A DNA stretch of 54,802 nt from Synechococcales cyanobacterium S06. GTDB taxonomy: Bacteria > Cyanobacteriota > Cyanobacteriia > Cyanobacteriales > JAABRE01. The translations under genes were made by a program, and so were the position numbers. The notes under the pieces were generated by a model. The model searched no databases. It saw only the letters and a list, made by a program, of their open reading frames with translations, and was not told where the DNA came from. The DNA lies in contig JAABRE010000029.1 in the NCBI GenBank assembly GCA_011391125.1, forward strand, positions 1 through 54,802. Direction: 5' to 3'. Below, piece by piece: positions 4,564 to 15,924 of the stretch (the first letter of the stretch is position 1; each line of letters starts with the position of its first letter).

Positions 4564-5166
4564 ATGGCATACGAACTCCCCGCATTACCTTATGAATACA
4601 CAGCCCTAGAGCCCTACATTTCCAAAAGCACTCTGGAGTTTCACCACGATAAGCACCATGCGGCTTATGTAACCAATTACAACGCTGCTGTGGAAGGCAC
4701 AGAATTGGCTACTATGTCTATCGAAGATGTCATCAAAGCTGTTGCTGAGGATGCCAGTAAAGCTGGTATTTTCAACAATGCGGCTCAATCTTGGAATCAC
4801 AGTTTCTACTGGAATTGTATCAAACCCAACGGTGGCGGCACTCCTAGCGGTGCATTAGCTGATAAAATTAATGCTGATTTCGGTAGTTTTGAAAACTTTG
4901 TTACCCAGTTCAAACAAGCCGGAGCGACTCAATTCGGTAGTGGTTGGGCTTGGTTAGTATTAGACAATGGTACTTTAAAAGTAACCAAAACCCCGAATGC
5001 TGGCAATCCCATTACTGCGGGGCAAATTCCTTTATTGACCATGGATGTTTGGGAGCACGCCTACTATTTGGATTACCAAAATAAAAGACCTGCTTACATG
5101 GATGATTTTGTTGCCAAGCTAATTAATTGGGATTTTGTAGCGGAAAATTTTGCTACAGCTTCCTAA
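4564..5166 (+). CDS. sodB: Iron superoxide dismutase
   Basis: 200 residues from ATG 4564; an upstream in-frame codon at 4525 is disfavoured because MAYELPALPY is the normal SodB start and a purine-rich GAGAGG precedes it. Metal ligands are visible as H27, H79, D161 (in MDVWEHAYY) and H165. AAQSWNHSFYW and the QFGSGWAWL segment are typical of iron rather than manganese enzymes. It dismutates superoxide to oxygen and peroxide in the cytoplasm. No signal peptide. It is followed by a structured RNA and a hairpin terminator. Confidence 0.95.
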   Translation: MAYELPALPYEYTALEPYISKSTLEFHHDKHHAAYVTNYNAAVEGTELATMSIEDVIKAVAEDASKAGIFNNAAQSWNHSFYWNCIKPNGGGTPSGALADKINADFGSFENFVTQFKQAGATQFGSGWAWLVLDNGTLKVTKTPNAGNPITAGQIPLLTMDVWEHAYYLDYQNKRPAYMDDFVAKLINWDFVAENFATAS

Positions 5167-5177
5167 TTATTAAGCGT

Positions 5178-5408
5178 AAGGTGGGGATCACCTAAAAACG
5201 GAGTCAATCACTGTTAATAGGTGTGAACCAGACCTCTCGTGAAGAGGAGCAGTTATCTAGGTCACGATACCTAGCGGTTAGCGTGCTCCTAGCTCTATCG
5301 CTACTGATTAAACAGTCCGCAAGGATAGTGTCTTTAGCTTAAAAAGCTTAGATAACAAGGTTGAGGCAAACATTACCCTCTTTTGAGGAGTTACTCAGAA
5401 ATGAGGTC
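5178..5408 (+). ncRNA. Highly structured RNA, resembling a stand-alone HEARO / IscB omega RNA
   Basis: No ORF, but nested hairpins in succession: GGTG/CACC (5181-5192); CACCT (5189-5193) pairing with AGGTG (5219-5223); CCTCT/AGAGG (5233-5247); a long arm with AGGAGC (5245-5250) pairing GCTCCT (5285-5290) around CTAGGT/ACCTAG; ACTG/CAGT; AGCTT/AAGCT; and CCCTC/GAGG near the 3' end. The order of elements, the long bulged hairpin, and an AGATAA...GG...AAACATTACC 3' part match what I remember of IscB omega RNA scaffolds (HEARO). No IscB or TnpB ORF follows. That it is a folded RNA is moderately sure; the class is inference. Confidence 0.5.
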
Positions 5409-5445
5409 AAATCTAGTAGTATTATGCTACTAGATTTGATATTTT
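5409..5445 (+). terminator. Hairpin terminator after sodB and the structured RNA
   Basis: A perfect 11-bp stem (AAATCTAGTAG with CTACTAGATTT) and a 7-base loop, followed by a modest T-rich tract (GATATTTT). It would close the rightward sodB/RNA transcript. Confidence 0.65.
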
Positions 5446-5651
5446 AACGGTTTTTTGGTATTGTTTAACTACATTTAACTCCTCTTTTCCGTGATTAGAT
5501 GATATGGCAATTTAAAAGAACTATTTGTTAATATTTTAAATTCTTAAAATTGTCCACCTTAGCCCAAAATTTACTCCTAATTTTAAGGGAAATTTTAACG
5601 ATTATTGGTTGAATAATAATGTTCAATTTTTAAAAATAGGATTTCTTTTAA

Positions 5652-7889
5652 TTAAATAAAAACACAAATGGGAACTCTTTTATATGCAGGAGTGCCACTA
5701 AGTTCATCAATTTGAGCATGAAACAATACATTCGCTTCAGGATAAAACATAAAAGCTGTACCTTCTCTTGTGTCTCCACAAATTATTTCAATGTCATTTA
5801 ATTGGCCAGCATTTCCTTTCACTTTAACTTTTTGATGTTCAGAAAAACCGGCTTTTTTCACATCAGTTCGATTCATCAAAATGCAATGACGATGAGGCAT
5901 TCCTCGATATTTGTCATATTCGCGGTAAACTACGGTGTTATGTTGTCCATAACTGCGACCTGTGCCTAAAATTAAGACAATTCCTGAGCTATTTTCTACT
6001 AATCCTAAATCTGTTTGGGAAGGTAATGATAATAAAGGTAAAGGTGTCACCCACATATTTGCTTTACCTGTCGGGGTGGGAAAAGTTGGTTCTGTAAAAA
6101 TGCGTCCCGAAATGGTAAATTCTTCTTTAGTTTTGTCAAGATTACTGATTTTTTCATAACCCGGAATAGTTTGGCCAATTAATTCCCTGACATATTTTGT
6201 GTCTTGTAATTTACGCCAGTTAATTGGTTTTTCTCCGAGACAAAGATGGGCAATTTCAGTTATTAATTCCACTTCAGAAATTAACTCACCTCGATCGCCC
6301 GAAATATGACTTTTACCAGTATCATTTAACCTGACAAAATTATTGCCAGATTCGGTAGTCGTGGGATGGGGATTTTCAAAACGGTTGAAAACGGGCAAAA
6401 TGAGGGTATTTTTGGCCGCTAAACCGTGAAAATGCCCTAAATTTGGTTTAGTTGCCACATAAAAGACGGTTTCTATCCTCGAAAGGGCAAATTTCGCAGC
6501 GTTTAAGTCAGGATTGGCTGCGTAAAGATTGCCGCCCAAACAGAACAAACTGTCAATTTTACCCGCTTCCGCCGCGTCAATTAAGGCGCGAGTATGATAA
6601 CCTTTGCTAGTATCAATGGGTTTTTCTAGCAAGATTGATAAAGCTTGTTTAATTTCCTCCTTTAACTTGATGGTAACACCCATTGATCCAAAACCCTGCA
6701 CATTGGAATGACCGCGAATGGGCATGACACCAGCGCCAAGTTTGCCCGCATTCCCCGTCATTAAAGCAGTATTGGCGATACTGCGCACATTCTCAACGCC
6801 ATTTGATTGCTGAGTTATTCCCATGGCCCAAGCAAAAACCACCGCTTCTGATTTTCCGATCATGTATGCAGTTTCCTCGATTTCTTCTTGGGAAATTCCA
6901 CAGGTTTTAATAATAGTTTCCCAGGGAATTTCTTGAGCAGTTTTGATAATTTCTGACCAATTTTCTGTGTGTTTTTCCAGATAATTATAATCCACTAAAT
7001 TCTGCTCAATTAATGATTTTTGTACCCCGATCAATAAAGCAGTATCACTCCCCGGAATTGGCTGTAGGTAAAGGGTTGAAATATCTGAACCACCTTTTAA
7101 AAGGGACTTAATTGGGAAAGCAGGGGAAGCAAATTTAACTAATCCTACTTCGATTTGGGGATTAATTATAATAATTTTGCCACCTCTTTCGCGCAATTTA
7201 ATTAGTTCATTCATTAAACGAGGGTGATTTGCGGGGGCATTTGAACCGATTAAAACCACACATTCAGCGTGTTTTAAGCTCTCTAAACTAACGATTGACG
7301 TTCCCGTACCAAAAACACTTTTTAAGCCCACTGTAGAGGGAGCATGGCACAAATCAGAGCAATCTGCAAGGTTGTTGCTATCCAAAGCCCTGAATAATAA
7401 CTGCAATAAAAAAGCGGCTTCGTTGGATGATCTTCCCGAACTATAGCTGGCGATTCTGTCACCTTGTTTTTTCAAAGCTTGTTCGGCGATTTCATAAACT
7501 TGTGGCCAAGTAATTCTTTGATAATGGGAATTGCCGGCTTGATACAAAAGTGGATAGCTTAATCTACCAAGGCGATCGCATTGTTGGGAATTCAACTTTT
7601 GTAATTCCTCAATGGAAAATTGTTCAAAAAAATTGGACTCAATGGGGGGTTGCAATTCGGCGGCGATCGCCTCTACACTTTTAGCACAGCGTTGTAAATA
7701 TTCTCCCGCTTCATTGACAAATCCGCCCTGTTGCCCACCAGTTCCCCAAGCACAGGATAAACAAGCACTTTTGTGATTTAAAGTCTTCCAAAGATCAATT
7801 CCTTGGGGAGAAAGCGTCTGTTCTACCCAATACTGAATAATAGGTAAACCGCCGCCACTATTTGGAGAAGAAGTATTATTATTAGTCAT
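5652..7889 (-). CDS. FdhF/YdeP-family molybdopterin oxidoreductase
   Basis: 745 residues of the formate-dehydrogenase-alpha-like YdeP family. The N-terminal ACLSCAWGTGG cysteine motif, SSGRSSNEAA, VLIGSNAPANHPRLMNEL, MTGNAGKLGAGVMPIRGHSNVQG and the C-terminal LILGTGRSYGQHNT molybdopterin-dinucleotide binding part are all present in the expected order. The length matches the family. It should bind a bis-MGD molybdenum cofactor; the substrate of YdeP-type enzymes is not established. No signal peptide, so cytoplasmic. No formate dehydrogenase partner subunit lies next to it. Confidence 0.9.
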   Translation of the reverse strand: MTNNNTSSPNSGGGLPIIQYWVEQTLSPQGIDLWKTLNHKSACLSCAWGTGGQQGGFVNEAGEYLQRCAKSVEAIAAELQPPIESNFFEQFSIEELQKLNSQQCDRLGRLSYPLLYQAGNSHYQRITWPQVYEIAEQALKKQGDRIASYSSGRSSNEAAFLLQLLFRALDSNNLADCSDLCHAPSTVGLKSVFGTGTSIVSLESLKHAECVVLIGSNAPANHPRLMNELIKLRERGGKIIIINPQIEVGLVKFASPAFPIKSLLKGGSDISTLYLQPIPGSDTALLIGVQKSLIEQNLVDYNYLEKHTENWSEIIKTAQEIPWETIIKTCGISQEEIEETAYMIGKSEAVVFAWAMGITQQSNGVENVRSIANTALMTGNAGKLGAGVMPIRGHSNVQGFGSMGVTIKLKEEIKQALSILLEKPIDTSKGYHTRALIDAAEAGKIDSLFCLGGNLYAANPDLNAAKFALSRIETVFYVATKPNLGHFHGLAAKNTLILPVFNRFENPHPTTTESGNNFVRLNDTGKSHISGDRGELISEVELITEIAHLCLGEKPINWRKLQDTKYVRELIGQTIPGYEKISNLDKTKEEFTISGRIFTEPTFPTPTGKANMWVTPLPLLSLPSQTDLGLVENSSGIVLILGTGRSYGQHNTVVYREYDKYRGMPHRHCILMNRTDVKKAGFSEHQKVKVKGNAGQLNDIEIICGDTREGTAFMFYPEANVLFHAQIDELSGTPAYKRVPICVFI

Positions 7890-8305: not shown

Positions 8306-8638
8306 TTATTTTAAAATAAGAATACCAAGATTTTTATCTTCTCCAAAGGACAAAATAGTTTCGTGGTTGTTTCTTAATAGTAATTCTATGGTTTTAGTGG
8401 AGCAATTTCCTAAACGAATCCAAATTATTTTGGGGGGAAAACCTTTAAGAATTAATAATTCATTAAAATCCGAATCTTTGGTAACAATAAGATAATTTTC
8501 TGTTTTGGCAATTTCCCAAACAATTTGATCAGATTCTTGATCTAATCCCCTTAAATAAAGATGATTAGAATTAGGATAAAGATCAGCTAAAATATTAACT
8601 AAACGGGGTGATAAATTGTGATCGAAAAGTAATCTCAT
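8306..8638 (-). CDS. DUF5615 PIN-like toxin
   Basis: 110 residues starting MRLLFDHNLSPRL, with the conserved aspartate, followed by TKDSDFNEL and PPKIIWIRLGNCST. This pattern is typical of the DUF5615 PIN-like proteins, presumed RNases, that pair with DUF433 antitoxins. The start codon overlaps the stop of the upstream DUF433 gene by one base (TAATG), indicating translational coupling. All visible acidic positions (D7, D56, D58) are kept, so it looks intact. Confidence 0.87.
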   Translation of the reverse strand: MRLLFDHNLSPRLVNILADLYPNSNHLYLRGLDQESDQIVWEIAKTENYLIVTKDSDFNELLILKGFPPKIIWIRLGNCSTKTIELLLRNNHETILSFGEDKNLGILILK

Positions 8639-8859
8639 TAGTTAACTAATAATGTTTGACGTTCACGTTCAGCAGCATAACTTAAACAGGCTAAAATATC
8701 CTCTTTGGTTAAATAAGGAAAATCAGCTAAAATTTCTTCAAAAGTCATTCCTGAAGCAAGATAGGAAAGAACATCATAGACAGTGATTCTCATTCCTCGA
8801 ATACAAGGTTTTCCGCTTCTTTTTCCTGATTCTATGGTAATAATATTTTGATAGGACAT
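8638..8859 (-). CDS. DUF433 antitoxin
   Basis: 73 residues: ITIESGKRSGKPCIRGMRITVYDVLSYLASGMT and ILADFPYLTKEDILACLSYA are hallmark DUF433 sequences (a small HTH-like fold). It is the first gene of a two-gene operon with the DUF5615 toxin and should neutralise the toxin and repress the operon, as known for such pairs. Confidence 0.9.
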   Translation of the reverse strand: MSYQNIITIESGKRSGKPCIRGMRITVYDVLSYLASGMTFEEILADFPYLTKEDILACLSYAAERERQTLLVN

Positions 8860-15245: not shown

Positions 15246-15557
15246 TTATAATAGTAATTCCCCATTAATTAAGCCATTAAAACCGTAAATTTGACGTGAA
15301 CCTCCTAATGTTACTAATTCCACCTCTTTTTCGTCCCCCGGTTCAAACCGAATTGCTGTACCTGCGGGAATATTCAAGCGCATTCCTTTGGTTAAATTTC
15401 GGTGGAATTGTAAAGCACAATTGACCTCAAAAAAGTGATAATGTGAACCAATTTGAATGGGGCGATCGCCAGTATTTGCTACTATTATTTTTAAAGTTTG
15501 TTTACCGACATTTAATTCTATTTCTCCTTTTTTGGCAAATATTTCACCCGGAATCAT
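15246..15557 (-). CDS. ureB: Urease beta subunit
   Basis: 103 residues, full length for Ure[51 protein letters not shown] and [10 protein letters not shown] are characteristic. It is part of the (UreABC)3 nickel urease. The catalytic UreC is not in this window; the MFS gene follows instead. Transcribed after ureA with a 64-base gap containing a palindromic repeat. Confidence 0.97.
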
Positions 15558-15594
15558 GTCATTTTCTCCTTTAATAAGTGTTAGTAATAATTGA

Positions 15595-15622
15595 GTAGGG
15601 GTTAACGGCCGTTAATCCCTAC
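15595..15622. repeat. 28-bp palindrome GTAGGGGTTAACGGCCGTTA... between ureA and ureB
   Basis: Near-perfect palindrome, second copy of the one at 12669-12696. It touches the ureA stop codon and could form a hairpin in the ureA-ureB mRNA. Confidence 0.75.
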
Positions 15623-15924
15623 TATTTAATGGGATTATGTACAGTAACTAATTTTGTACCATCAGGAAAAGTGCCTTCTACTTGAACTTCTGGGATCATT
15701 TCGGGGATACCTTCCATCACATCATCTTTAGTTAATAAAGTCGTACCATAACTCATTAATTCTGCCACAGTTCGGCCTTCTCGCGCACCTTCTAAAATGG
15801 CCGCAGAAATGTAGGCAATTGCTTCAGGATAATTTAATTTAAGGCCTTTATTTTTGCGTCTTTCTGCTAATAAAGCCGCCGTAAACAACAATAATTTATC
15901 TTTTTCTTGGGGTGTTAGTTGCAT
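15622..15924 (-). CDS. ureA: Urease gamma subunit
   Basis: 100 residues, full length: [56 protein letters not shown] and [13 protein letters not shown] are diagnostic of UreA. First gene of the ureA-ureB-MFS operon. Confidence 0.98.

Follow-up and report, generated by a model that had tools for sequence, protein, structure and literature searches.

IscB is an RNA-guided nuclease, an ancestor of Cas9, and its guide RNA, the omega RNA, corresponds to the HEARO family of Rfam (RF02033), in which a downstream iscB gene is usual, not universal. Stand-alone omega RNAs that work together with IscB are already on record (Altae-Tran et al. 2021, as cited in PMC9581776). In the case of TnpB, copy retention and drive guided by the insertion site have been described (PMC11870625). 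In the cyanobacterium Limnospira indica, HEARO RNAs have been annotated and set aside, together with group I and group II introns, as remnants (PMC8400943).

The window, that is, the whole stretch of 54,802 nucleotides analysed here, contains a HEARO behind the superoxide dismutase gene sodB. Compared with RF02033, it shows a whole-length match, the same order of stems, the 3' core (GATAACA...GAGGCAAACATTACC), the 3' hairpins and the 5' position of the guide, but it has no downstream iscB and scores just below the cut-off, as do the iscB-linked members of its subtype. Like the stand-alone omega RNAs cited in PMC9581776, it has no neighbouring nuclease gene, and iscB lies elsewhere in the genome; unlike them, as far as they are characterized in that citation, a full mini-element can be delimited, a hairpin replaces iscB, the matching iscB is damaged and the function in trans is putative. 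As in ISC or IS200/IS605 elements, it has defined left and right ends that dispersed copies have in common; the tnpA of the autonomous members is missing. Short length, ends of a parent element and the absence of a protein gene are shared with the non-autonomous IS200/IS605 derivatives of the PATE/MITE type, from which the window element differs by its complete guide-RNA scaffold. To what is known, the locus adds a delimited mini-element, a hairpin that replaces iscB and recurs in two or more families of one genome, and a last RNA hairpin that overlaps the start of iscB. With good probability, 5184–5508 is a mini-element of the ISC or IS200/IS605 type that lacks iscB, is non-autonomous and borrows, or formerly borrowed, IscB in trans. 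It is a well-delimited case of a guide RNA outliving its nuclease gene and spreading as an element of its own.

Architecture of the element downstream of sodB

Coordinates are window positions (Table 1); C90 denotes the window copy, and the other C labels denote copies on other contigs of the same genome. The DNA that follows sodB does not code for protein and is structured. The single-sequence fold of 5150–5430 has a z-score of -2.56, with 1 of 200 shuffles equally stable, and the Rfam HEARO model matches 5203–5376 on the plus strand over its full length (1–211) at 77.8 bits (E=1.3e-15). In addition, DNA homology with the nearest other HEARO copy in the genome spans 5178–5405, and the copies nearest to the window element are iscB-linked ones. 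The initial annotation, which had proposed a structured non-coding RNA resembling a HEARO or IscB omega RNA, is borne out on both counts by the fold, the significant covariance-model match and the homology. Because the match lies below the Rfam gathering threshold for HEARO, 83 bits, it is absent from a default Rfam scan. The low score is no ground for doubt, since copies of the same subtype directly before iscB also remain below 83 bits, both in this genome (C66, 76.5 bits; C130, 67.5 bits) and in other species (L084, 82.7 bits; L087, 79.2 bits).

Table 1. Features at the sodB locus and within the mini-element, in window positions
Feature	Position	Strand	Basis or comment
sodB (Fe/Mn superoxide dismutase), host gene	4567..5166	+	ORF; Pfam Sod_Fe_N and Sod_Fe_C
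Presumptive 16-nt guide TATTAAGCGTAAGGTG, host DNA just left of the left end	5168..5183	+	placement by the conserved left end
Omega RNA (HEARO) scaffold	5184..5405	+	RF02033 match; homology to iscB-linked C66, C105b and C130; 49 covarying or conserved pairs
Left-end stem CACCTA / TAGGTG, adjoining the guide	5189..5223	+	relatives retain the stem with other sequences
First 3' hairpin CCTC-TTTT-GAGG	5377..5388	+	changed pairs elsewhere: CCTA/TAGG, CCAT/ATGG, CCGT/ACGG
Second 3' hairpin CTCA-GAAA-TGAG	5394..5405	+	3' arm includes ATGAG
13-bp hairpin replacing iscB; probably a transcription terminator	5407..5439	+	hairpin and terminator scans
Right end of the mini-element	5464..5508	+	counterparts in C66 and C105b lie at and after their iscB stops

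On the left, the element starts at GGGATCAC (5184), which C90, C66, C105b and C130 have in common. The left-end stem is formed by CACCAA/TTGGTG in C66, by CACTTACTA/TAGTAAGTG in C105b and by CATTAAC/GTTAATG in L086. On the 3' side, the ATGAG of the second 3' hairpin serves as the iscB start in C66, C105b and C130, all of which carry the gene, and because the last hairpin of the RNA overlaps the iscB start, the end of the homology coincides with the end of the RNA and is not random. Further downstream, the right end aligns with the DNA at and after the iscB stop in C66 (alignment score 50, shuffles 21 ± 3, 0/1000) and in C105b (41.5, shuffles 22 ± 3, 0/1000). The complete mini-element therefore measures about 325 bp, from 5184 to about 5508 with a right tip uncertain by a few bases, and has lost iscB, with a hairpin in its place. 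It extends well past the 5178–5408 first assigned to it, up to the right end common to the iscB-bearing copies.

Since the element reaches about 5508, the hairpin in the place of iscB lies within it. It had been described as a terminator that alone follows the RNA; this is correct in that neither iscB nor tnpB follows, but the hairpin belongs to the element and is not demonstrably the terminator of sodB itself. Its plus-strand T tract is weak; in the terminator scan it was flagged on the minus strand only. The element contains no tnpA transposase gene of its own, and the Y1 transposase loci elsewhere in the genome have no ends in common with it, only simple repeats being matched.

The sodB context

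The stop codon of sodB occupies 5164–5166, and the mini-element begins 17 bp past it on the same strand. The next large ORF beyond the element (5652–7889) lies on the minus strand and no iscB or tnpB gene is found at the locus, confirming the stand-alone state. A scan for consensus matches detects no promoter-like match on the plus strand between sodB and the element; from this and the 17-bp distance, the sodB transcript probably runs into the element.

The same proximity and orientation would suit a regulatory RNA of the host in the 3' UTR of sodB, without any tie to mobile elements. This reading is very improbable, as judged against sixteen copies dispersed over the genome, element ends common to other copies, and the absence of a HEARO-like motif at all 109 other sodB loci (from 29 other genomes of the order, plus 80 from named genomes). 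The insertion is therefore lineage-specific. No empty insertion site appears among these loci, where the downstream DNA is unrelated or free of a HEARO motif, the window genome being the sole member of its genus and family compared; the regions downstream of sodB have already diverged at the level of the order.

Elsewhere in the window, to judge by eye from the minus-strand sequence, two adjoining small ORFs (8306–8859; 110 and 73 aa) look like a toxin–antitoxin pair of the DUF5615/DUF433 type, and pieces of a DNA cytosine methyltransferase (543–2087; ORFs of 245 and 72 aa) have the appearance of one interrupted gene.

Covariation of the RNA scaffold

The main alignment comprises nine sequences of the window subtype, and its consensus structure has 9 helices with 49 pairs in total. 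Across this structure 95.1% of the cells are paired, and two-sided changes occur in 23 of the 49 pairs, a level that 0 of 500 shuffles reach. When the partner is slid by one column, pairing falls to about 40%; part of the excess over the slid versions is built in, because these same sequences also gave the structure, whereas the Rfam match is independent of this. In a wider alignment of 14 sequences, 18 of 30 pairs carry two-sided changes. The initial annotation had named in advance two outcomes that would speak against its HEARO assignment, the lack of a significant hit and the lack of compensatory base changes in homologues; both the hit and the changes are present.

Such stems could also act mainly as DNA hairpins in transposition by a Y1 transposase rather than as RNA, an improbable reading. 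The left-end stem lies beside the tip, as in the ends of IS200/IS605 elements, Y1 transposase genes are present in the genome, and, according to work on IsrB, some of the region beside the guide may be there for transposon mobility and not for cleavage (PMC9581776). However, the constraint spans all 222 nt of the scaffold, core and long-range closing helix included, and it is an RNA model, HEARO, that is matched.

The structure also bears on whether the scaffold is an inert relic, an omega RNA fossil left after the loss of iscB that no nuclease now uses, which has somewhat less than an even chance of being correct. In favour of the relic, the window copy has three broken pairs; the remaining 46 of 49 are kept. 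Against the nearest copy, C66, seven two-sided changes keep the pairing and one, in the window copy, breaks it, despite similar rates of change at paired (24/98) and unpaired (25/122) sites. Furthermore, helix 6, which has three broken pairs in C66, is intact in C90, and the boundaries match the 3' hairpin of the RNA and the terminator-like hairpin.

HEARO copies and iscB genes in the genome

The genome contains 16 dispersed HEAROs, ten of them stand-alone and six followed by iscB or, counting fragments, a piece of it (C105b, C151a, C78a, C130, C66 and C29). The strongest hairpin past the scaffold has -13.5 to -24.6 kcal/mol in all ten stand-alone copies (the value for C78b being that of two hairpins taken together) vs. 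-5.2 to -9.6 kcal/mol in the six iscB-linked copies. Eight of the ten stand-alone copies belong to a second family, characterized by its own conserved right part.

The members of this second iscB-less family are C91, C9, C5, C120, C105:22540, C107, C81 and C151:14696 (L030, L033, L041–L044, L040 and L036). In its terminator-like hairpin the stem sequence varies and the pairing stays (AAAAATAATAGTACC... vs. AAAAACTATAGTAG...). A position behind same-strand genes was considered as a general rule for stand-alone copies and rejected: the gene next upstream is on the same strand in only four of the ten, and among these four the window copy is the closest to it.

All the iscB genes of the matching subtype are damaged. 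In C105b, an insert of about 130 bp follows codon 8, without an in-frame ATG, GTG or TTG inside it; in C66, the gene has an internal TGA stop and lacks its middle; in C130, it is truncated. The intact iscB genes, C151a and C78a, both belong to the other HEARO subtype, and the assembly holds no intact iscB of the window's subtype, so that activity of the element today is doubtful. The word orphan in the initial annotation accordingly fits the locus, which has no nuclease gene, and not the genome, where iscB genes occur elsewhere, albeit damaged in the matching subtype.

The damage to every matching iscB, and the assignment of the intact IscBs at C151 and C78 to the other subtype, argue for the relic, although the loss of the nuclease may be recent. 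Because the matching nucleases look broken, for the present day the relic comes close in likelihood to the mini-element served by IscB in trans; the confidences placed in the two overlap, since they differ in present-day function only. At the locus itself, the scaffold is preserved, both ends are present and iscB is absent.

Repeats are found inside several of these copies. One of about 110 bp (...TTTTTAGTTTGTTGTTGGACTTTAGTCC...) splits iscB after codon 8 in C105b (L031 / L015, C105:41600-42200) and recurs in C81 at the left end of the HEARO (L040, about 15550–15680). A C-rich insert (...CCCCCCCTTG..AAGGGGGGAAGT...) occupies variable loops of the HEAROs L035 (C130), L039 (C78a), L037 (C151a) and L044 (C107), forming a nested repeat inside an RNA gene.

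The guide and a possible mode of retention

The guide had been placed just 5' of about 5180. Its position on the 5' side stands; its limits shift, because the scaffold begins at 5184 and the presumptive guide is therefore 5168–5183, host DNA directly behind the sodB stop. For its length, 16 nt, published IscB omega RNAs served as the model. In the whole genome, TATTAAGCGTAAGGTG has no second site with fewer than two mismatches, and sites with two or three mismatches are no more frequent than those of the reversed control pattern. Uniqueness of the guide is predicted if it directs the nuclease to the element's own insertion site, yet any random 16-mer would behave likewise.

In the preferred reading of a mini-element served in trans, iscB would have been lost from an iscB-bearing element, a hairpin taking its place, and the product would have inserted 17 bp past the sodB stop. 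The sodB transcript would read into the element and stop at the internal hairpin, yielding an RNA that carries, as its 5' guide, the host sequence to the left of the insertion. This RNA could be loaded onto IscB supplied by another copy, and the complex would then cut chromosome copies that lack the element, which repair would copy back. Several chromosomes per cell are common in cyanobacteria. The cleavage-based step is proposed by analogy with the work on TnpB (PMC11870625) and with the stand-alone omega RNAs that function with IscB (cited in PMC9581776). If the trans mechanism is true, one IscB serves many guides, a step reminiscent of CRISPR-Cas9, where guide and nuclease genes are separate, and cyanobacteria with multi-copy genomes would offer a natural setting for testing nuclease-driven copy retention.

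Occurrence in other genomes

In a sample of the order, 24 of 50 genomes contain HEAROs, 235 in total. Among the 150 matches listed, a listed iscB lies no more than 1.5 kb downstream of 56, 89 have none and 5 are at a contig start; iscB-less HEAROs thus outnumber iscB-linked ones among the matches listed, the stand-alone share being an upper estimate because downstream contig ends are counted in and short iscB fragments may escape. The pattern holds in G039, a genome in a single contig, with two HEAROs with iscB and eight without among the matches listed. No DNA similar to the element was found in plasmid records, and viral contigs gave no exact match to the 27-base core pattern.

A stand-alone copy in another species (L089/L129) also has a long hairpin after the scaffold. 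A wider proposal, which we put forward tentatively and consider rather less likely than its opposite, is that mini-elements composed of a left end, an omega RNA, a terminator-like hairpin and a right end have arisen repeatedly in cyanobacteria without iscB; they would constitute a distinct class of parasites exploiting the IscB of other elements to drive through polyploid chromosomes, the guide RNA in this case being powered by the sodB promoter.

Two stand-alone copies of the window subtype, L089 (G127:C93) and L090 (G304:C58), occur in other cyanobacteria with different sequence at the place of iscB, and L090 retains the first codons of that gene.
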